Of a stretch of 64,000 nt of DNA, positions 16,765 to 37,641 are shown piece after piece. A model generated the notes under the pieces. The model ran no database searches. It saw only the letters and a program-made list of their open reading frames with translations, and had not been told where the DNA came from. Both the position numbers and the translations under genes were made by a program. The stretch is from NCBI GenBank assembly GCA_028279345.1, contig JANQNY010000006.1:124001-188000 (forward strand), given 5' to 3'. Position 1 is the first letter of the stretch, and every line of letters begins with the position of its first letter. The DNA comes from Geminicoccaceae bacterium (GTDB taxonomy: Bacteria > Pseudomonadota > Alphaproteobacteria > Geminicoccales > Geminicoccaceae).

Positions 16765-17019
16765 TGCACAGGGAATCTCAATGATGTGGCGCGGATACGG
16801 GGTTCGCAGGCTCGTCTCCGACAGGAAGCCGCTTTTTTTGGAACGATGTCCATGCCCGCTTGGCGGACGAAGCGGACCTGTGAGGGCATGCCGATCAGGC
16901 CCCTTCGCCTGCTTCGTGCTCAGAGCTGTAGGATTGGCGGAACCACGCTCGACGCCGCCGTTTCCCAACAGTAGTCTGTACTTTGGCTTGCCTCAGTTCG
17001 CACATACTATCCAACATCA

Positions 17020-17919
17020 ATGAAATCGTCGCCTATCGGACGCATGCGCGCAGTTTCCAGCCATAGTCCACATATATTATCTGGCATCATTTACATGTCT
17101 ATGGCCGTTTTCTTGTTTTCTATTGTGGACGTTCTAGCAAAAATGCTTGCTAGCGATTATCCGGTAAATCAAATAATCTTCTTTCGCATGCTCTTTGGGC
17201 TTCTTCCAGCCATCATTCTTCTCCGATCTTTCAGCGTGGGAAGTAGCGCCCTCTACACCAGACGACCCCTGACGCACCTCTGGCGTGCGGCGACCGGTCT
17301 TGGTGCTATGGGCCTGTTTTTCTACGCGCTTCCGCTTATGCCACTTGGAGATGCCGTGGCGCTGTCTTTTGCAAAAACCCTCTTTCTCGCGCTTCTCGCG
17401 GTACCGTTGTTAGGCGAGCGACTGACCATGGGGAGGATGATCGGAACGTGTGTCGGGTTCCTGGGCGTGATTCTGATCATTCGACCATCGGGCGCTTACG
17501 AAGGATGGGCAGGTCCCGCCTTCGCCCTCGCCAGCGCGCTCTGCTTTGCACTTTCGATGATCACGATCCGCAGACTCAGCGCGACGGAATCGACACCGCT
17601 CATCGTCCTTTACTACACGGCGACGGCCACATTGGTCTCCGGCGTATCGCTGCTGTGGGGATGGGTGACGCCGACCCCCTCGGCCCTAGGTTTATTCATC
17701 GTGTTGGGTGTCGTGGGTGGCACCGGGCAGTTGTTCATGACCGCCGCCTTCCGCCGTGCGCCTGCGAGCGTTGTCGGCCCTTTCAACTACGCGGCCATCA
17801 TCTGGGCAGCGTTGTTTGGCTACTTGATTTGGCACGAGCAGCTGGACATCGTCTTCGCAATCGGGGCGACGACTATCATCGTCAGTGGTGTCTGGCTGGC
17901 GCGCCACGAGACGGTCTGA
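17020..17919 (+). CDS. DMT-superfamily (EamA) permease
   Basis: 299 residues, ten predicted helices in two EamA repeats (about 20-150 and 160-290). The motif SGIIYMSMAVFLFSIVDVLAKML opens repeat one. Drug/metabolite exporters of this kind move amino acids, nucleotides or toxins; no substrate can be assigned. Its first third is distinctly AT-richer than the flanking genes (e.g. TTTTCTTGTTTTCTATTG), a sign of acquisition. No good ribosome site precedes ATG 17020; later in-frame ATGs at about 17044 and 17095 are possible. It stands alone between the RND operon and a second low-GC gene. Confidence 0.85.
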   Translation: MKSSPIGRMRAVSSHSPHILSGIIYMSMAVFLFSIVDVLAKMLASDYPVNQIIFFRMLFGLLPAIILLRSFSVGSSALYTRRPLTHLWRAATGLGAMGLFFYALPLMPLGDAVALSFAKTLFLALLAVPLLGERLTMGRMIGTCVGFLGVILIIRPSGAYEGWAGPAFALASALCFALSMITIRRLSATESTPLIVLYYTATATLVSGVSLLWGWVTPTPSALGLFIVLGVVGGTGQLFMTAAFRRAPASVVGPFNYAAIIWAALFGYLIWHEQLDIVFAIGATTIIVSGVWLARHETV

Positions 17920-18000
17920 GGCTCGCACGCCACGAGATGGCGATGGCGCTCCGATGTTCGCAATGGGCCGGCTCCAACCCTCGCCGCGCAGAGCACCGCT

Positions 18001-18555
18001 ATGGGTATAGCTTCAGACAAGAAAGACAAGGACAAACCGCAAGAAAACCTAGCAATTCTTGCCACGTCTCGCGACAATGGAGATACGTCACATGCTCTCA
18101 ATGAATTAACAAGCAATCATGTGGTAGATGTAATAAGTTTTAGCAAGTTAAATATTTCACCATTTGATTACCACAACTGCAACATTGATGATGATTTTCT
18201 TTGTCCGTTAATACGAATGACTGAAGCTACCACTATTATCGTTGCAACACCCGTATATTGGTATAGCATGAGCGCTCAGATGAAAATCATATTTGACCGC
18301 CTCAGTGATCTGATAACAATTAACAAGCAAGTCGGCAGAAAGCTAGTTGGCAAATCAGCTGCATTCCTCGCGGTTGGGAGTGACGAATTTTTGCCAATTG
18401 GGTTTGCTAACCCGTTTGAAATGACATTTCGCTATTTTGATATGTCGTTTGCGGGAAGCTTTTACATATGCACAGGCGAACGGGCCCTTTCTGAAGTCGA
18501 ACGTCGTCGCCAGTTGGACAGCTTCGCTGCTCGCCTATGGGGCTCCTCAGTCTGA
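18001..18555 (+). CDS. Flavodoxin-like NAD(P)H-dependent oxidoreductase (low GC)
   Basis: 184 residues. The fold is that of NADPH-dependent FMN reductases/flavodoxin-like quinone reductases: an early strand NLAILATSR followed by a loop with T-S, a central TTIIVATPVYWYSMSAQMK segment (the family's P-V-Y-W-x-x-x-S-x-x-x-K motif around residues 80-95), and then DRLSDLI. FMN is the likely cofactor. Codon use and base composition are far more AT-rich than anywhere else in the window until the last ~25 codons, arguing for transfer. The ATG has no clear ribosome site. Substrate unknown. Confidence 0.75.
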   Translation: MGIASDKKDKDKPQENLAILATSRDNGDTSHALNELTSNHVVDVISFSKLNISPFDYHNCNIDDDFLCPLIRMTEATTIIVATPVYWYSMSAQMKIIFDRLSDLITINKQVGRKLVGKSAAFLAVGSDEFLPIGFANPFEMTFRYFDMSFAGSFYICTGERALSEVERRRQLDSFAARLWGSSV

Positions 18556-18940
18556 ATTGGTTCGACCTATTCGGCACTGAGCGATCTCCGAGCTGCGCCG
18601 TCGGGTGGCGCCTAAGGGCTCGACTACGACCTTGCCGTGCTTCTTGCCGAGGGTCGTTGCGCGGACGAAACGGGCACTCGACCACCACGGAGGCTTGCTC
18701 ACCACTTCGAACCATCCAAAAACAAGCCGCTACCCGCTCTCTCGAAGGAGCTACGCTGGTCATTCGCGTTGGCAGACGAAGCCTTCGAGACGAGCCCGAA
18801 CCCTCTCGATACGGTCGATTCGCTGTTGTATGAACTCTCGCTGCCGAGTTCGCATGGCGCGCTTCGGATGCGCTGACTAGGGCCGTCGTGATCGCACGAT
18901 GGGTATCGAGACTGGCCGATGTGGCAAAAGGAGAAGAAGA
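18556..18940. other. Gene-free stretch, no function seen
   Basis: Between the low-GC reductase and the VOC protein lie about 385 bases without a convincing gene. Three overlapping short forward frames (about 80-98 codons) exist, but their translations are rich in Arg/Ser/Thr and match nothing I recognise. Base composition returns to mixed GC. It may be the remnant of the boundary of the acquired segment. No repeats or hairpins stood out. Confidence 0.4.
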
Positions 18941-19357
18941 ATGATTGCCTACGTCACGGTCGGTGTCGACGACATCGCGCTTGCGGAGAAATTCTACTCG
19001 TCGTTCCTGCCACGCCTCGGCTACGTCTTGGAGGTCGCGCCCGAAGGACTGGGCTACTCGATCCCCAGCACGAGCGATCAGCAGTCCGCGCCGGCCGATC
19101 TCTACGTCAGAACACCCTACGACGGGCAGGCAGCATCGGTCGGCAACGGCACGATGGTGGCCTTCAAGGTGCAAACTCAGGCCATGGTCCGTGAGCTTCA
19201 CGCTGCTGCGCTTGCCGCTGGTGGGCGGGACGAGGGGGCGCCTGGCTTTCGCGCCCAATATGGCGCCCACTTCTACGTGGGTTATCTACGCGATCCCCAA
19301 GGCAACAAGATCGCGCTCTTCTGCAACAGCCGGGACGAGCCCAAACGACCGGACTGA
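18941..19357 (+). CDS. VOC (glyoxalase/bleomycin-resistance fold) family protein
   Basis: 138 residues. Starts IAYVTVGVDDIALAEKFYSSFLPRLGY, the classical opening strand-helix of VOC proteins; a C-terminal HFYVGYLRDPQGNKIALFC supplies the second metal-site half, with a histidine and a D-P-x-G-N-K-I turn. Such small VOC proteins include dioxygenases, lyases and thiol transferases; the specific reaction is unknown. ATG 18941 was chosen over an earlier in-frame codon because AAGGAGAAG lies directly upstream. Stands alone. Confidence 0.85.
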   Translation: MIAYVTVGVDDIALAEKFYSSFLPRLGYVLEVAPEGLGYSIPSTSDQQSAPADLYVRTPYDGQAASVGNGTMVAFKVQTQAMVRELHAAALAAGGRDEGAPGFRAQYGAHFYVGYLRDPQGNKIALFCNSRDEPKRPD

Positions 19358-29055: not shown

Positions 29056-30033
29056 ATGACGATGAAGCCCACCCCGGTAGCCGTTGAAGTCTGTCGTGGC
29101 GGTCTCGTCGAGAGCCGCCACCGGGTGGCGCTCGCGGTGGCGGAGCCGGACGGCCGCCTGCTGCATCAGCTCGGCGACGTCAAGACGCCCATCTACCCGC
29201 GCTCCTCGGTCAAGCCGATCCAGGCCGTGTCGCTCCTTGATACGGGCGCCGCCGACGCGTTCGAGGTGACCGCCGAGGAGCTGGCCCTCGCCTGCGCCTC
29301 GCATGGCGGCGAGCCCATGCATGTCGAGCGGGTGCGTGCCTGGCTCGCGCGCATCGGTCTCGACGAGGGTGCCCTCGCCTGCGGCGCCCACGCGCCGATG
29401 CATCGGCCGAGCGCGCGGGTGCTCAGAGCCGGAGGCGACGGGCCGACGGCCGTGCACAACAACTGCTCGGGCAAGCACACCGGCATGCTCTCGACCGCCA
29501 TCCATCTGGGCGAGCCGACTGCGGGCTATCTGGAGCCCGACCACCCGGTGCAACGGCGCATCCGCGAAGTCTTTGAAGAGCTGAGCGGCGAGCGCATGGC
29601 CCCGCCCGGCGTCGACGGCTGCGGCGTCCCCAACTGGCCGATGCCGCTCGCGACCCTCGCGGTCGCGCTCGCCAAGCTGATGGAGCGGGGTGAGACCGCG
29701 GAGCGCATCTTCGCCGCCATGCGCGCGCACCCAGAGCTGGTCGCCGGCACAGGGCGGATCGACACGGCACTGATGCAAGCGCGGCCCGACATCGTCTCTA
29801 AGGGCGGCGCCGAAGGCGTGCATATCGCCATCCTGCCCGAGCGGCGCCTCGCCCTGGCGCTGAAGGCCGAGGACGGCGCCAGCCGTGCCGCCGACGTGGC
29901 GCTGATCGCAGCACTCGACAAGCTCGTCGGCGGGGACGAGCGCCTACGCAGCCTCGGCACGGCGCCCGTGCACAGCGTCGCCGGCCGCTTGGTCGGCGAA
30001 GTGCGCCCGACACGTGGCTGGCCCGATGCTTGA
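29056..30033 (+). CDS. L-asparaginase, Asparaginase_II (rhizobial thermolabile) family
   Basis: 325 residues. It hydrolyses L-asparagine to aspartate and ammonia. The family's S-x-x-K dyad is visible in RSSVKPIQAV (about residues 49-58), followed by EELALACASHGGEPMH, NNCSGKHTGML (about 135-145) and DGCGVPNWPMPLA. It is the fold related to serine beta-lactamases, not the E. coli AnsA/AnsB fold. ATG 29056 or 29062 are both possible, with no strong ribosome site. It stands alone after the divergent VPLPA gene. Confidence 0.88.
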   Translation: MTMKPTPVAVEVCRGGLVESRHRVALAVAEPDGRLLHQLGDVKTPIYPRSSVKPIQAVSLLDTGAADAFEVTAEELALACASHGGEPMHVERVRAWLARIGLDEGALACGAHAPMHRPSARVLRAGGDGPTAVHNNCSGKHTGMLSTAIHLGEPTAGYLEPDHPVQRRIREVFEELSGERMAPPGVDGCGVPNWPMPLATLAVALAKLMERGETAERIFAAMRAHPELVAGTGRIDTALMQARPDIVSKGGAEGVHIAILPERRLALALKAEDGASRAADVALIAALDKLVGGDERLRSLGTAPVHSVAGRLVGEVRPTRGWPDA

Positions 30034-30134
30034 GAACTCAGGCGCGGCTTCTCCGATTTCTTCTCCGTCTAGTCACCCGAGCCACCATCTCAACAGTCCC
30101 AAATCTCGTCTTGGCGTCAAAGCCTGATACTTGC

Positions 30135-30728
30135 ATGACCATCAAGCCGAACAAACGGGAGCAGATTGGCGTCTATTTGGAGTTCGCGCGCCCATACTAC
30201 GAAAGTAAGGATGCAGCCCACGACTTCCGGCATATTCGGCGCGTCGCGGCACGGTCAGATGAACTTGCGAAGTGCGCTGACGATGAGATTCGCCTGGATC
30301 GTCTGTGCTGCCTCGTGGCGTTTCACGGCCTTGGCGGCAAGCTCGCCGACGACGCCCAGCTTGCGGAGCGCATAACGATATTCCTCGCGACGTTGGGATG
30401 GTCAGCGCCAGAGATCGAAGCGTTGCTGGCCGCATTGGCAAGACATGTGTCGGACCCGCAAACGGCAGAGGAGAGGATCGTCCATGACGCCAACCTTTTC
30501 GAAGTGACCGGACCGTTCGGCATCGCCAAGGCGTTCACCGTAGGCGGCGCCCGTGGTCAGTCCTACGAGCGCACCTTGGAGATCTTCGAGCGGAACCTCG
30601 ACAAGGCGACTTTCCGAACCTCAGCCGCCCGCGCGGCCTACGCACCTCGAAAGGTGTACGCACACGCGTTCATCAAAGCGCTTCGCGCTGACCTCGAAGA
30701 CGATCACGCAGGCATGGACGATGGCTGA
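30135..30728 (+). CDS. HD-domain-like protein with substituted HD pair
   Basis: 197 residues from ATG 30135. The arrangement of HD phosphohydrolases is recognisable: AHDFRHIRRVAAR (His29, Asp30, His33), a helix, then VAFHGLGGKL where the hallmark His-Asp pair should be, a later LARHVSDPQ and ERIVHDANLFE with the distal Asp near 118. At the HD site the second residue is Gly65 instead of Asp, so one metal ligand is missing. It could be an inactive or altered member of the uncharacterised YedJ-like branch. Unremarkable codon use; no partner gene. It ends 85 bases before the broken transketolase copy. Confidence 0.7.
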   Translation: MTIKPNKREQIGVYLEFARPYYESKDAAHDFRHIRRVAARSDELAKCADDEIRLDRLCCLVAFHGLGGKLADDAQLAERITIFLATLGWSAPEIEALLAALARHVSDPQTAEERIVHDANLFEVTGPFGIAKAFTVGGARGQSYERTLEIFERNLDKATFRTSAARAAYAPRKVYAHAFIKALRADLEDDHAGMDDG

Positions 30729-30812
30729 CATGGCGTGAGTGCGCCGGGCCACGTCGCGCATTGCGACCATACTCGGGACCATTGGGAAACACGGCGCCGG
30801 GACGAAACCCGG

Positions 30813-31064
30813 ATGCCGTTCGACTGGGCGAAGCTGCCGCTGCTCGAGGAACTCGAGCGCAAGGCGCTATGGCTCGCCCGCAGGACGGTGCACAACGCCA
30901 ACCACCTGCGCCCCCTGCGCGACGGTTTGAAGGTGAGCGGCCACCGTCGTCCTCGGCGTCCGTCGTCAGCCTGACGATCGCCAAGCCGCACGCCTCGCCC
31001 GTGTTCCACGCCATCCCGTACGTCTTGGGGAACCGGACGGAGGACCAGCTCGAGCGCTTCCGCG
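30813..31064 (+). pseudogene. Truncated, frameshifted copy of the transketolase-like gene 5' end
   Basis: The translation MPF-DWAKLPLLEELERK-ALWLA then HNANHLRP-LRDGLKVSGH matches residues 1-45 of the gene at 35266. A frameshift near 30940 then moves the match to another forward frame (SSSASVVSL, KPHASPVFHAI, LGNRTEDQLERFRA). Fourteen residues (about 42 bases) present in the intact gene between SVVSL and KPHASP are missing. Homology stops after about 80 codons. It is therefore a dead partial duplicate lying upstream of the protease gene. Confidence 0.85.
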
Positions 31065-31206
31065 CAGCGACGTGCGCTGCCGACCGCGGTCACTCTTCCG
31101 GACGCTGAGATGGACGCGCTTGCGCCACGCCACGCAGGTCGCCCGCCTTGTGCGGTTGCAAAATGCGCCAAAGTAGGCGAAATATAAGCGATAGTGATCA
31201 GCGATG

Positions 31207-31232: not shown

Positions 31233-34200
31233 ATGGCGCATATGTCTACATTGCTACTCAGGCGTTGGCGACCACAATACCGGAACCCACTTTACCTGTT
31301 AATTTTTGTTGGACTTGTCTTTGGCGGAAGAGCGGTCGCGCAAATAGACGTTGGCGCGTCATTTGACTGCCCGTTGGGGAGCTGCGACGCCAACACATCG
31401 GATGAAGGCGGCGATCATCACAACGTGGTGCTCGCTGAGCACCTGGCGGAGGCACGCGCCTCCGGCAACGGAGCCGCAGAACGTTCGGCATTTGCCGAGG
31501 TCGGTGTGCGGTTTCGCCCCTGCTTCACCGGACCGGTTCGCCTAGGCATGCACGACATCGACATCGACGGCCGTCTGCGCGGTTTCGGCGGTGGCCCGGT
31601 GATTCGCGGCGACGTCAACGTCCGCACCATCTTGCGCGACGTCACCGATGGCATCGAGCTTCACAATGAAGTCGTTTTCGAGGAGGAGGAACGCGGCAAC
31701 GTCGGCGTCACGGTCAATCATGACATCAGCGTCAACCGGGAGAGCTTCGTCACCGAGACAGTAACCGAGAACCACACCTATGACTTCGTGGTCCGCGTGA
31801 ACGCGCGGAAGTTCGGCCTCAACGGCATGTCGGATTTTCAGCAGGGCGGCCGTGGCGTGAGCTTCGACCGGGTCTCTCTCGTACCGCAGCTCGAAGACAC
31901 GGACGGCGACGGGCTTTTCGATCAGTGGGAGATCTCGGGCATCGACGAAGATTGCGATGCCATTGTTGAGGTCGACTTGCCGCAAATGGGCGCCGACCCG
32001 ACGATCAAGGACGTCTTCCTCGAGCTCGATTGGATGACCGGTGAGGCGCCGACGCAGGCGGCGGTCCGTGCGGTCGTCAACGCATTCGCGTTGGCACCCG
32101 GTACCGCGGGCGGCACGAACACGCCGGGCCAGGGCATCAACCTGTGGGTCGACACCGGCGACCTCACCGACCCCACCGCTAGCGAGGATGATGCCGGGCC
32201 CAACACGTGCGGGGACGGTTTCGACAACATGCTGGACGGCGCGGAGGACCAGCTCGATCCGGACTGCCTCGTCGGCGCCCTCGCCTTCTCCAGCTTGGGA
32301 GCGGACCTCGGCGGCGGCAACGGCTTCCCCGTGAGCGGCGTCCCGGACATGTTCAACGACGCCGACGTCGATGGCGAGACCGACTTCGAGGAAGCCAAGT
32401 TCGATCCGGGACGGGGCAACTTCGATCCGGCGCGCCTCCGGGTGTTCCGTTACGCCATCAACGCCGTGCCGGCTGGACCTCCGCCGAACATGGGGGGCCA
32501 GGCGCTCCACAACGACTTCGTGCTGTTCAATCAGAACGCCGGCCTGCTGATGCACGAGCTGGGCCACACGCTCGGCCTGGGGCATGGCGGGCCGTACGAT
32601 GACGTCGAGGGCGGGGATGACGAGGTCAACTGCAAGCCAAACTACCTCAGCGTGATGAACTATCGTTTTCAAGGAGGTATTCAGGTCTCGGGTGGATTAG
32701 GCAACGGTCAAGACATCGACGGCGATGGCACGCCAGACGGTTTCATTCTCGATTACTCGCCGCCACGCTTCTCAACCGGTCCCGGCACGTTCGGTCGGAA
32801 CGCAGCGCTAGCGGCCGTCGACGAGACGGCGTGGTCAGAGGCGGTCGTTCAGGACGTCGGCGACGCCGCGAATATCAGCGCTTGGACGATCGCCAATCAG
32901 AGCCTCTTCACCGGCATGGTCAACGCGCCACCGGATTGGAACGGGGATGGCGACACCAACGACCAAGCGCCGCCGTCGATCGATTTCAACACCTCAGCAT
33001 GGACACCGAACGCCGCCGAGGGCACGGGCACCTGTTCCGATGGAATGGACCACGACTTAGACGGGCTCACCGACATCAACGACCCGGACTGCATTGTGAA
33101 CCAGCGGTGCGGACTAGCGAGTAACGCGTCGGTGCAGCAGTACAACGGAGCCAATGACTGGGACAATCTCGATCTGGATCCGAACCGGTACGCCCAAGCA
33201 GATTCGGGCGATATTCCGGGCTGGAACGATGAGCCGGGTCTCGATGACATCCGTCGCCTGCAAGCCGCCATGCAGACGACGGACATCGCTGCCGTTGCAA
33301 AGGAAGCCGACGTCGATCCGGTCGCCGCAGGTCAGCCGCTGAACTACACGATCACTGTCGAGAATCTCGGGCCCAGGGCGACGACCGAAGTCATTCTAAC
33401 TGATCTTTTGTCGCCGGACTTGCATTTCCTTGACGGAGAGCCGTCGTGCGAGGAAGCGAACGACGATGTTGTTTGCGCCGTCGGTGGCTTGGACCCTGGT
33501 GACAGCAGAGACGTGACGATCAACACCAGGGTCAGCGTCGACCTCGCCTGTGCGCCTGGTGAGCAGTTCACGGAGCTGGTGAACCTCGCCGAGACGACCA
33601 ACCTTGGCGGTCCCGACAGCGACCCCAGCAACGACACCGTTCAGCTCACCTCGTCGGCGCTCTGCGCTCGCTACGAGTATGCGGCCAAGTATGTCTGCGG
33701 GCGTCAATCCTCGAGAGACGACCCACGGCTAAGCATCGGCGAATACAAGACCACCGTTAATGTTCATAATCCTAATGATGAGGACGTCTTTTTCTTCAAG
33801 AAGGTCGCACTGGCCTTCCCGCCGGCCGAGCAAGCGCCGGGTGACGTGATTCCGATAGCCATCGATCAGTTGGCCTACGACGAGGCGCTCAAGGTGGACT
33901 GTGCGGAAGTTCGCGAGGCGCTGGAGGCGTCGCCGCAAGACTACGTCGAGGGTTACGTCATCGTTCAGAGCCCGCTCAGTCTCGATGTCGACGCCGTGTA
34001 CACGACAGAGGTCAGAGACGACGACGGGAGGGTCGTGTCCAGCAGCCTCGACGTTGAAGCCGTTGACGAACGCGAGCGTCGGCGCACGGCGGACTTGGAA
34101 GTTACCAAGAACGTGACCACTGCCACGATCGCGGAGTATCAGGTGGAAGGTCCTCAGCCTGTAAGGTTTGCCTACCACTTGGCGCTCTACGCAATCCAGC

Positions 34201-34562
34201 TAACGAACAACGGACCCGACACCGCGCACAACGTGGTCCTCAACGACGCCCTTTCGGTCAACGCTACCAACGGACTGGGAGCAGCGGCGATCTTTCCGGA
34301 GCCGATGACGCTGCCGGAGGGTGCGGAAGTCACGGATCTCGAGTTCGTCGGCCCGCATCTTTCAACCATGACGATCGCGATCGGCGACCTCGAACCGGAG
34401 GCGGCTGTCGAGGTTGCGTTTTGGGCTCTGGCCCTGACGGTCGTGATCGGTGATGGTGATCCGCATATCGAGCTACTCGACAAGGTCTCCACCGGGAGCA
34501 TCGCCGCCGAGATCGCACCCGGAAACAACTCGGTCGAGGTCGTGTCGGTCCTTGTTCCATGA
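31233..34562 (+). CDS. Large secreted metzincin-type zinc metalloprotease with DUF11-like modules
   Basis: 1109 residues. A long N-terminal signal region (basic RRWRPQYRN, then PLYLLIFVGLVFGGRAVA) indicates export. An Asp-rich Ca-binding-like repeat (DTDGDGLFDQWE, about 221-232) and two C-x-DG-x-D...DPDC modules (about 325 and 600) follow. The catalytic zinc site is HELGHTLGLGH (His441, Glu442, His445, His451), with a Met-turn in SVMNYR (Met475): metzincin clan. Two DUF11/CARDB-like beta domains lie near 685-800 (NYTITVENLGPRA) and 975-1105 (AIQLTNNGPDTA). The start has no strong ribosome site; M4 (31242) is possible. Substrate unknown. Followed within 44 bases by a small exported protein. 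Confidence 0.85.
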   Translation: MAHMSTLLLRRWRPQYRNPLYLLIFVGLVFGGRAVAQIDVGASFDCPLGSCDANTSDEGGDHHNVVLAEHLAEARASGNGAAERSAFAEVGVRFRPCFTGPVRLGMHDIDIDGRLRGFGGGPVIRGDVNVRTILRDVTDGIELHNEVVFEEEERGNVGVTVNHDISVNRESFVTETVTENHTYDFVVRVNARKFGLNGMSDFQQGGRGVSFDRVSLVPQLEDTDGDGLFDQWEISGIDEDCDAIVEVDLPQMGADPTIKDVFLELDWMTGEAPTQAAVRAVVNAFALAPGTAGGTNTPGQGINLWVDTGDLTDPTASEDDAGPNTCGDGFDNMLDGAEDQLDPDCLVGALAFSSLGADLGGGNGFPVSGVPDMFNDADVDGETDFEEAKFDPGRGNFDPARLRVFRYAINAVPAGPPPNMGGQALHNDFVLFNQNAGLLMHELGHTLGLGHGGPYDDVEGGDDEVNCKPNYLSVMNYRFQGGIQVSGGLGNGQDIDGDGTPDGFILDYSPPRFSTGPGTFGRNAALAAVDETAWSEAVVQDVGDAANISAWTIANQSLFTGMVNAPPDWNGDGDTNDQAPPSIDFNTSAWTPNAAEGTGTCSDGMDHDLDGLTDINDPDCIVNQRCGLASNASVQQYNGANDWDNLDLDPNRYAQADSGDIPGWNDEPGLDDIRRLQAAMQTTDIAAVAKEADVDPVAAGQPLNYTITVENLGPRATTEVILTDLLSPDLHFLDGEPSCEEANDDVVCAVGGLDPGDSRDVTINTRVSVDLACAPGEQFTELVNLAETTNLGGPDSDPSNDTVQLTSSALCARYEYAAKYVCGRQSSRDDPRLSIGEYKTTVNVHNPNDEDVFFFKKVALAFPPAEQAPGDVIPIAIDQLAYDEALKVDCAEVREALEASPQDYVEGYVIVQSPLSLDVDAVYTTEVRDDDGRVVSSSLDVEAVDERERRRTADLEVTKNVTTATIAEYQVEGPQPVRFAYHLALYAIQLTNNGPDTAHNVVLNDALSVNATNGLGAAAIFPEPMTLPEGAEVTDLEFVGPHLSTMTIAIGDLEPEAAVEVAFWALALTVVIGDGDPHIELLDKVSTGSIAAEIAPGNNSVEVVSVLVP

Positions 34563-34606
34563 GGCGACGCGCGGCGCTCCGGCCACCATCAGGAGGAGCT
34601 GAGCGA

Positions 34607-34873
34607 ATGTCGGCACAGGTGACGATCCTGTCGATCTTGCTGACCGGTGGCGCGCTGCTGTCGCATGGCGCGGCGGCTAGCGATAGGCCGCAAACGGCCT
34701 ATCCCGAAGCGCCGTGCGCTGAGTACGAGCGACGCCTTATCGACGTTCTGGACAGGCAGACGCGGCTGCCCTCGACGTCGTTTGCCGCGGCGCGGCAGGT
34801 CGAAGAGCGCGCTCAGCAGCTCACGCAATCACGGGAGTTTGTCGACTATCTGCGCTGCCTGTCAGAGCAGTGA
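34607..34873 (+). CDS. Small exported protein next to the metalloprotease
   Basis: 88 residues from ATG 34607, which has AGGAGGAGC upstream. A Sec signal peptide (SAQVTILSILLTGGALLSHG...AAA-SD) is clear. The mature 63 residues hold two cysteines (APCAEYERR and YLRCLSEQ) that could pair, and a helical centre. The gene starts 44 bases after the protease stop on the same strand, so cotranscription is likely. It might be an inhibitor, chaperone or unrelated; no family is recognised. Confidence 0.65.
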   Translation: MSAQVTILSILLTGGALLSHGAAASDRPQTAYPEAPCAEYERRLIDVLDRQTRLPSTSFAAARQVEERAQQLTQSREFVDYLRCLSEQ

Positions 34874-35265
34874 GGTAGCTACAACCGGCTGGCGTCGAGG
34901 TGCCGGGCCCGAGTTCGCGATGCTCTGGCGTAGGTGGCACGGGCGAGGCCAAGCATGTGGCGTTGCGCGCTCCTTTGATCTGCGGTGCCACCGTCCAATC
35001 GGACTACGCGGTGGCAGCGGTCGGCGTCGACGCACCAGGTCAGCGACCGAATGCCTCGCCGCCGTCCGCGCGAGACATAGGCCGTGGCACCAGATGCAAG
35101 GCGTGCGTTCGCAACACCCCCGGCTGGCCGCCTGTTGATTTGCGGGTGAGATCAGTCACGTTGCATGCTCCACGATGATGGGTACGCGGGCGGGGGCTTC
35201 CCGCCGCGCCGCCTTAGGGCTCGGAAGCCCATGTGCCACCGGCGTCATAGCGGGGGATCGGAACG
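34874..35265. other. Gene-free spacer upstream of the transketolase-like gene
   Basis: About 390 bases with no convincing reading frame; a 92-codon forward frame from 34900 has Cys/Gly/Pro-rich composition and no match I recognise. A hairpin GGCGGG-GGCTT-CCCGCC lies at 35189-35205, about 60 bases before the start codon. It could be the degraded 3' border of the inserted protease segment plus the transketolase promoter. Confidence 0.4.
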
Positions 35266-37641
35266 ATGCCGTTCGATCGGGCGCAGCTGCCGCTGCTCGA
35301 GGAACTCGAGCGCAAGGTGTTGTGGCTCGCCTGCTGGACCGTCCACAATGCCAACCACCTGCGTCCCGCGCGCGACGGGGTGAAGGTTGGCGGCCACCAG
35401 TCGTCTTCCGCTTCCGTCGTCAGTCTGATGACCGCGCTCTACTTCGCTGTGCTGAGGGCGCAGGACCGGGTCGCCGTCAAGCCGCACGCGTCGCCCGTGT
35501 TCCACGCCATCCAGTATCTCTTGGGGAACCAGACGCGGGACCAGCTCGAGCGCTTCCGCGCCTTCGGCGGTGCGCAGTCCTACCCGTCGCGCACCAAGGA
35601 CAAGGACGACGTCGACTTCTCCACAGGGTCAGTGGGCTTGGGCGTCGGCGTCACGCTCTTTGCGGCTCTCGTCCAGGACTACCTTCTGAACCACGAACTC
35701 GTACCGGAGGGCACCGAACGCGGCCGGATGATCGCGCTCATGGGCGACGCCGAGCTCGACGAGGGCAACATCTACGAGGCGCTCTTGGAAGGCTGGAAGC
35801 AGGACGTCCGCGATCTCTGGTGGATCGTCGACTACAACCGGCAGAGCCTGGACGGCGTCGTCAACGACGAGCTGTTCCGCCGCATCGAGATGTTCTTCGC
35901 GAATGTCGGCTGGCGGGTGGTCAACATCAAATATGGCGAGAAGCTCAGGCGCGCCTTCGAGGGTCCCTGCGGTGAGGCGCTCAAAGACTGGATCGACGAC
36001 TGCCCCAACCAGCTCTATTCGGCGCTGACATTCAAGGGAGGTGCGGCGTGGCGCGACCGCCTACGGCACGATCTGGGCGGCACGTCGGGTCTCAAGACGT
36101 TGTTGGACAGTCACGACGACCCGGCCTTGCAGCGCCTGATGACCAATCTCGGCGGGCATGACCTCGAAACGCTGCTCGACGCGTTCGAGGCCGTCGACGA
36201 CGACCATCCCACCTGCTTCGTCGCCTACACGATCAAGGGCTACGGACTGCCGCTCGCGGGCCACAAGGACAACCATGCAGGGCTCATGACGCCCGAGCAG
36301 ATGGCGCGGCTCCGCGGCGGGCATGGTGTGGACGAGGGCGCAGAGTGGTCGCCGGTGGCGGGGCTCGCAGCTCCGTCCGCGAAGCTTCAGGCGTTCCTCC
36401 GCGATGTTCCCTTCGCCAAGCGGGTCCCCATAGCCCCGCCGCCGCGACTGCAGGTGCCGCCCCTTGCGGCGCCACCCGCGCCCGTCCAGTCGACGCAGGA
36501 AGCCTTCGGCAAGATCCTCAACGACCTCGCGCGCTCGAACGCACCGATCGCCCATCACGTCATCACGACCTCACCGGACGTCACGATCTCGACCAATCTG
36601 GCGGGCTGGGTCAACCAGCGGGCCATCTTTCATCGCCAGCTTCGCCCCGATCTCTTCCGCGAGGAGCAGGTCGCCTCGCCGCTCAAATGGGATCAAGGGC
36701 CGCACGGTCAGCACCTGGAGCTCGGCATCGCCGAGAACAACCTGTTCTTGGCGCTCGCTGCGATGGGCCTCGCCCATCGGCTCTTCGGCGGTCGACTCTT
36801 GCCGGTCGGCACGCTCTACGACCCCTTCATCGCCCGCGGCCTCGATAGCCTCAACTATGCCTGCTACCAGGACGCGCGCTTTCTTCTGGCGGCGACCCCT
36901 TCCGGCATCTCGCTCGCCCCCGAAGGGGGTGCGCACCAATCGGTCGGCACGCCGCTCGTCGGGCTCGCGCAGGACGGCCTCGCCGCCTTTGAGCCCGCCT
37001 ATGCGGACGAGCTGGCGTGGCTGATTGAGTGGGCGCTCGCGTATCTCCAGAACGACGGGACGGGCAGCTCCGCCACCGGTTGGGACCGCGATCTCGAAGG
37101 TGGCTCCGTCTATCTCCGCCTTTCCACCAAGCCGCTGAACCAGCCTGCGCGCACGCTCGACGCGACGCTCAAGCAGGCGATCGTCGACGGCGGCTATTGG
37201 CAGACGCCACCCACACCCGAGACCAGGATCGCCATCGCCTATCAAGGCGTGTTGGCAGCCGAGGCCGAGGCCGCCGTCGAGACGCTTGCAGACGAAGGCG
37301 AGCCGGCCGCCCTGCTGGCGGTGACGTCGGCGGATCGCCTGAACGCCGGCTGGCACGCGGCGCAGCGCCGTCGCCAGACCGAGGCGGCGCGCGTGGCCTC
37401 GCAAGCGGAGACGCTGCTCGCCGACCTGCCGCGCCGCGCCGCGCTGGTGACGCTGATCGACGGGCACCCGGCGACCCTCTCGTGGCTTGGCGGCGTCCTA
37501 GGTCACCGCGTGCTGCCGCTCGGGGTGGAGCATTTCGGCCAATCGGGTGACACCATCGACCTCTATCGTCACCATCGGGTCGACGCGGATGCCGTTCTCG
37601 ACGCGGCGGCACACGCCCTGGTCACGACGCTAACCGCATAG
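35266..37641 (+). CDS. Transketolase / thiamine-diphosphate E1-like enzyme
   Basis: 791 residues, longer than classical transketolase (about 660) and shorter than AceE (about 890). The thiamine-diphosphate motif is GDAELDEGN...YNRQ (about residues 163-192). An early KVGGHQSSSASVVSLMTALYF is the substrate/cofactor-entry region, with PHASPVFHAI after it. Pyrimidine domain ELGIAENNLFLALAAMGLAHRL (about 485-506) has the catalytic Glu. The C-terminal transketolase-type domain ends near 790. Such proteins are annotated as transketolase or as pyruvate dehydrogenase E1 homologues; substrate choice is unsettled. No E2/E3 is adjacent. Its first 80 codons are duplicated as a pseudogene at 30813. Confidence 0.85.
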   Translation: MPFDRAQLPLLEELERKVLWLACWTVHNANHLRPARDGVKVGGHQSSSASVVSLMTALYFAVLRAQDRVAVKPHASPVFHAIQYLLGNQTRDQLERFRAFGGAQSYPSRTKDKDDVDFSTGSVGLGVGVTLFAALVQDYLLNHELVPEGTERGRMIALMGDAELDEGNIYEALLEGWKQDVRDLWWIVDYNRQSLDGVVNDELFRRIEMFFANVGWRVVNIKYGEKLRRAFEGPCGEALKDWIDDCPNQLYSALTFKGGAAWRDRLRHDLGGTSGLKTLLDSHDDPALQRLMTNLGGHDLETLLDAFEAVDDDHPTCFVAYTIKGYGLPLAGHKDNHAGLMTPEQMARLRGGHGVDEGAEWSPVAGLAAPSAKLQAFLRDVPFAKRVPIAPPPRLQVPPLAAPPAPVQSTQEAFGKILNDLARSNAPIAHHVITTSPDVTISTNLAGWVNQRAIFHRQLRPDLFREEQVASPLKWDQGPHGQHLELGIAENNLFLALAAMGLAHRLFGGRLLPVGTLYDPFIARGLDSLNYACYQDARFLLAATPSGISLAPEGGAHQSVGTPLVGLAQDGLAAFEPAYADELAWLIEWALAYLQNDGTGSSATGWDRDLEGGSVYLRLSTKPLNQPARTLDATLKQAIVDGGYWQTPPTPETRIAIAYQGVLAAEAEAAVETLADEGEPAALLAVTSADRLNAGWHAAQRRRQTEAARVASQAETLLADLPRRAALVTLIDGHPATLSWLGGVLGHRVLPLGVEHFGQSGDTIDLYRHHRVDADAVLDAAAHALVTTLTA

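Follow-up and report, generated by a model that had tools for sequence, protein, structure and literature searches.

A gene in the window, the whole 64-kb stretch of DNA analysed here, probably encodes an exported zinc endopeptidase of the metzincin clan, which would be stabilised by calcium and would catalyse in the same manner as serralysins and astacins. The family to which it would belong has no model in Pfam or NCBIfam. The reading frame is open and, as an earlier preliminary description had proposed, codes for a 1109-residue protein with a Sec-type export signal that can be read by eye (Table 1). The sequence GGGA is located about 8 nt before the ATG at position 31242, which is probably the true start rather than 31233. 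The N-terminus consists of RRWRPQYR, a hydrophobic stretch (residues 20-32) and then AVA followed by Q, between which the signal peptide would be cleaved. Together with this signal, the acidic composition (16.7% Asp and Glu, 5.4% Lys and Arg) and the 16 Cys residues fit an exported protein. A search of this genome revealed no type II secretion secretin over the cut-off. The single GspD match was short and below its cut-off, and a type II secretion system was not accepted on this basis; hence, the enzyme may equally stay in the periplasm or on the surface or be released.

The catalytic region contains the full zinc site and the Met-turn sequence that the preliminary description had reported: HELGHTLGLGH begins at residue 441, and M475 follows H441 at a distance of 34 residues. 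Residues 441-451 conform to HExxHxxG/NxxH/D, the zinc motif of the metzincin clan MA(M) (PMC12237041), and this pattern is also kept in the homologs. Compared to the Photobacterium homolog described below, residues 296-690 have a pN/pS of 0.30, the DUF11 part one of 0.50 and residues 812-915 one of 0.23, with synonymous sites near saturation. This indicates purifying selection, with the catalytic region and the module at residues 812-950 as the constrained parts of the protein. As the zinc site and the Met-turn are furthermore preserved in homologs with 29-41% identity, the motif is not a product of chance. A tyrosine switch is known from astacins, serralysins and other metzincins (PMC12237041), and Y477 may act as such a switch here. 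The metzincin fold is defined by a five-stranded upper sheet, a backing helix, an active-site helix and a C-terminal helix; AlphaFold models of residues 210-690 (single sequence) and of the relative at IMG/VR locus L015 (shallow six-row alignment) had pLDDT values of 34.5 and 32.5, respectively, too low to judge the fold.

Table 1 Features of the protease gene and its surroundings. Positions refer to the window; residue numbers refer to the 1109-residue reading frame.
Feature	Position	Strand	Basis or remark
Partial, decayed duplicate of the start of the transketolase-like gene	30812..31065	+	blastn, 75%, first ~300 bp, versus 35265-35561
Metzincin-like protease ORF	31233..34562	+	Open, 1109 aa; 1106 aa from the probable true start
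Sec-type signal peptide, residues 1-36	31233..31340	+	Sequence by eye; hydropathy peak 20-36
N-terminal domain, residues 37-215	31341..31877	+	Homologous to the N-domain of G213 (BLASTP E 4e-16, 26%) and of Photobacterium L003 (71%)
DTDGDGLFDQWE, TSP3-like segment, putatively calcium-binding (222-233)	31896..31931	+	Conserved at the family front
Metzincin-like catalytic region, residues 255-690	31995..33302	+	KDVFLELDW strand through NDW and the segment beyond; alignments, PDB profile matches
Acidic Cys module 1, C326-C345, within the catalytic region	32208..32267	+	NF033662, sub-threshold
Zinc motif HELGHTLGLGH (H441, E442, H445, H451)	32553..32585	+	Sequence, alignment
Met-turn SVMNY (residues 473-477; M475; Y477 candidate tyrosine switch)	32649..32663	+	Preceded by NCKPNYL
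Acidic Cys module 2, residues 601-626 (C601-C620)	33033..33092	+	NF033662, sub-threshold
NDWDN, DW family-invariant, late in the catalytic region	33153..33167	+	Invariant alignment columns
DUF11 domain 1, residues 687-805	33291..33647	+	Pfam PF01345, best match
Uncatalogued C-terminal module, residues 812-950	33666..34082	+	Motif TTVNVHNP ... EALKVDC ... EGY; alignment
DUF11-like domain 2, limits approximate	34095..34532	+	Second DUF11 / TIGR01451 stretch
Small 104-aa ORF	34559..34873	+	4-nt overlap with the protease stop; apparent signal peptide if the start is ATG 34607

The nearest homolog was detected in Photobacterium sp. JCM 19050 (BAXG01000003.1, L003) with 63-71% identity. A plasmid-encoded protein of Haematobacter massiliensis (WP_131389645.1), which is about 33% identical over 648 columns, is labelled just 'DUF11 domain-containing protein'. 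Further relatives occur in two other Alphaproteobacteria, in other Pseudomonadota, in Nonomuraea and Streptomyces (Actinomycetota), on haloarchaeal plasmids and on two IMG/VR contigs. Among the Pseudomonadota, both Alpha- and Gammaproteobacteria are represented. Family members were present in three of 385 alphaproteobacterial genomes, counting the window's own, and in 8 of 369 genomes of the class to which genome G558 belongs, two of these at the edge of detection. Judged by eye, these two matches look like ordinary serralysin and reprolysin-like proteins. Searches of a phage collection and with PADLOC returned no match, no relative with a reported enzyme activity was found, and open-licence papers contained nothing relevant on the motif or on the combination of a metzincin with DUF11. 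In the family tree, the group of the window, Photobacterium and Haematobacter proteins has a support of 100 and spans two classes; deep support is weak, and the tree was relied on for this group alone.

HExGH, SxMxY, DW and the Gly following the third ligand are invariant across 12 aligned sequences, which derive from bacteria, archaea and a phage-like contig, and SxMxY is suitably spaced from the zinc site in all members. Most of them also contain KD[IVL]F[VL]E[VI]D, HGG and, ahead of the Met-turn, N-x-KPNY. A decayed HExGH was found in none of the relatives. Two haloarchaeal members lack the third His and have an Asp at or beside its position, which would fit an Asp as third zinc ligand as in the snapalysins and igalysins, two metzincin groups with this ligand (PMC12237041). 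The haloarchaeal relatives at L013:3131-4651 and L014:2314-3597, with Asp at or near the third-ligand place, also carry TSP3-like repeat arrays. On one IMG/VR contig (L016:1-1014, IMGVR_UViG_3300033146_002684), an open frame for a 337-aa relative lies close to a gene whose distal-tail match is weak and is a candidate for a phage-encoded metzincin. Overall, we lean towards a separate metzincin family that is distributed over Pseudomonadota, Actinomycetota, haloarchaea and a phage-like contig. Its signature would comprise KD[IVL]F[VL]E[VI]D, HExGHxLxLxHGG, N-x-KPNY-x-S[VI]MNY and DW, with a third ligand that is His in bacteria and probably Asp in haloarchaea and with an uncatalogued C-terminal module in some members.

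No catalytic-domain model of Pfam or NCBIfam exceeded its cut-off on the protease. The Pfam models Reprolysin_5, Reprolysin_3, M66 and Matrixin scored 10-14 bits versus cut-offs of 20-27. Measured against the individual thresholds, Reprolysin_3/4/5 (M12B) reached 14 of 27 bits, Peptidase_M10 (M10A) 11 of 24, the serralysin model NF035945 (M10B) 14-15.5 of 500 and the archaemetzincin model 12.4 of 145; on the window protein, the latter two lie at 12-14 bits. Archaemetzincins are characterised by HExxHxxGxxHCx4CxMx17CxxC with a Cys4 zinc site (PMC3427221); in the protease, no Cys follows H451 directly, and C467 is the sole Cys from there to M475. These metzincin models also match the relatives, but weakly; Reprolysin_5 does so in 11 of the 12 members, with 1.6e-5 as the best value. 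None of them exceeded a peptidase cut-off in the scans reporting cut-offs, and the L015 relative came closest (Reprolysin_5, 23.2 of 27 bits). Compared with the PDB, the family profile matched serralysins (7e-6), adamalysin-type enzymes (9e-5) and MMPs (0.02-0.04), with a kinship limited to about 40-80 residues around the zinc site. An hhalign comparison to a serralysin-like protein of one of the genomes resulted in 94.9% probability over 37 columns, and an unrelated asparaginase used as control in 0.1%. These profile and hhalign matches support the metzincin clan and not any specific family, in agreement with the preliminary suggestion of a secreted metzincin outside the standard named families. 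It could be argued that the protease instead belongs to one of two known families, as a divergent reprolysin-like M12B or serralysin M10B enzyme that present models under-score. The recurrent Reprolysin_5 matches, the score of the L015 relative, the rank of serralysins as best PDB match and an SxMxY Met-turn like that of serralysins and astacins are consistent with such an origin. We regard it as rather unlikely, given that no member exceeds a peptidase cut-off in those scans, that no RTX family (serralysin beta-roll) is among the Pfam or NCBIfam matches of the protease and that the KPNY signature is missing from the serralysin and reprolysin-like outgroups. In the tree, these outgroups have branches of 2.8 and 3.3, but the split is supported by just 37-62, which leaves this alternative some weight.

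The accessory parts named in the preliminary description could all be located. Asp-rich segments that resemble calcium-binding sites are present at residues 222-233, 494-499 and 570-577, and the L016 relative has a TSP3_bac match below the cut-off. The two C-DG-D-DPDC stretches matched the NCBIfam model acid_disulf_rpt (NF033662) below its cut-off (26.5 versus 41 bits), and the first of them is likewise present in L003 and L005. DUF11 (PF01345) matched two stretches with 77.1 bits, above its cut-off of 24.6 (E 1.7e-21). The module at residues 812-950 has no Pfam model. It was also found in Photobacterium, in the alphaproteobacterium G213, at the IMG/VR locus L015 and in a secreted-looking protein of G483 that has no protease in the stretch read. 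Two of 385 alphaproteobacterial genomes contain it, one being the window's own, and a query against plasmids gave no match. Beside a secreted-looking protein with the module (L020) lies an ORF that is sialidase-like by eye. As the module is present in several relatives and the N-domain also in G213, the order of N-domain, metzincin and 812-950 module is a recurring architecture and not an oddity of this genome. The protein had been described as unusual in its architecture. This is less well supported, with the Photobacterium protein being co-linear almost throughout and the G213 protein sharing three parts.

After Sec export, the N-domain, the metzincin domain and the C-terminal beta domains would fold, with an acidic disulfide loop as part of the metzincin domain. 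One zinc ion would be held by H441, H445 and H451, and E442, as general base, would activate the zinc-bound water for the attack on the peptide bond. M475 is predicted to form the hydrophobic floor of the zinc site, while Y477 may have the intermediate-stabilising role known from serralysins and astacins. The TSP3-like and DxDGDG segments could bind calcium and the acidic Cys modules could form disulfides. Spacer, surface or substrate-binding roles may fall to the DUF11 domains and to the module at residues 812-950. A modest guess is that the enzyme is likely used for extracellular protein breakdown for nutrition or for surface remodelling.

The protease gene was most likely acquired horizontally. 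It is absent from all 144 other genomes among the relatives, one of the same genus included. Its GC3 is 0.76, whereas uvrA, purB and the transketolase-like gene have 0.85-0.87; this is weak evidence for transfer because the upstream neighbour has 0.68 and some others 0.77-0.79. The transketolase-like gene begins at 35266, downstream of the protease, and the decayed fragment of its 5' end lies upstream, so that the protease and the 104-aa ORF are positioned between the two and may plausibly have been inserted by recombination. In Pfam and NCBIfam, the 104-aa ORF matched no family, and no relatives of it were found. In six relatives, the genes flanking the transketolase-like gene are all different from those in the window, and as gene order is not conserved there, no empty site could be demonstrated. 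The proposed location in an island did not find support, as the window contains no tRNA and no mobility gene was identified beside the protease. The locus rather looks like a singleton acquired gene, possibly two, than a demonstrable island. Elsewhere in the window, positions 17001-19000 have a GC content of 0.50-0.57 compared to about 0.67 in the remainder, and the gene at 30030-30728 (GC3 0.68) is distantly similar to HD-domain proteins (plasmid tblastn).

The 4-nt overlap of the two ORFs, the lower GC3, the partial repeat upstream and the absence from relatives would also suit cargo of a mobile genomic island, with the 104-aa ORF as cognate partner or inhibitor. We consider this unlikely, as it is opposed by the lack of a tRNA or an identified mobility gene, by the absence of a small-ORF copy beside the homologs and by the unconserved gene order, which leaves no empty site. 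That the enzyme specifically degrades prey or matrix, as had been speculated before, is equally doubtful. Export, the multi-domain build with DUF11 and an additional module, and similar modules in secreted or surface proteins are compatible with it, but no neighbouring gene, secretion system or homolog of known substrate suggests prey or matrix. The metzincin fold could even be used for binding without proteolysis, similar to the archaemetzincin homolog CarG, in which the Glu is replaced; archaemetzincins are inactive on standard substrates (PMC3427221). This appears quite improbable for a protein in which, as in its near relatives, the catalytic Glu, three ligands, Met and Tyr are intact.

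The active-site design, as deduced from the motifs, is familiar; the family is without an entry in the main protein-family catalogues searched. With its wide yet sparse spread, it is more interesting than the protease itself, whose architecture is not unique. Should the family prove real and active, it would represent a broad group of secreted proteases that are now annotated as 'DUF11 domain-containing' or 'hypothetical', provide a clear signature for finding further members and offer a natural comparison of His and Asp as third ligand within one metzincin family. The effect would concern annotation and enzyme discovery more than principle.

Among the known systems, serralysins (M10B) resemble the protease in HExxHxxGxxH, in the SxMxY-type Met-turn with its Tyr, in being secreted and as best PDB profile match, whereas the protease differs in the segment between the third His and the Met-turn, in the lack of an RTX match and in a score below the cut-off. 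Reprolysin and adamalysin (M12B) share HExGHxLGxxH and gave the best sub-threshold Pfam matches, but the cut-off was not reached and the outgroup Met-turn is without the Tyr of SxMxY. Igalysins and snapalysins use the Asp third ligand that is predicted for the haloarchaeal relatives, whereas the window protein, for which no sequence match to them was found, has a His. The Haematobacter protein belongs to the same catalytic family and likewise has acidic Cys modules and DUF11, but its BLAST match to the protease stops before the 812-950 module. The Photobacterium protein is co-linear with the protease over residues 14-950, with the same acidic Cys modules and with 71% identity in the N-domain and 63% from the catalytic region through the C-terminal module; its tail diverges past residue 950, and the draft record contains two frame changes. 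The alphaproteobacterial G213 protein has the N-domain, the protease and the C-terminal module in common with the window protein.
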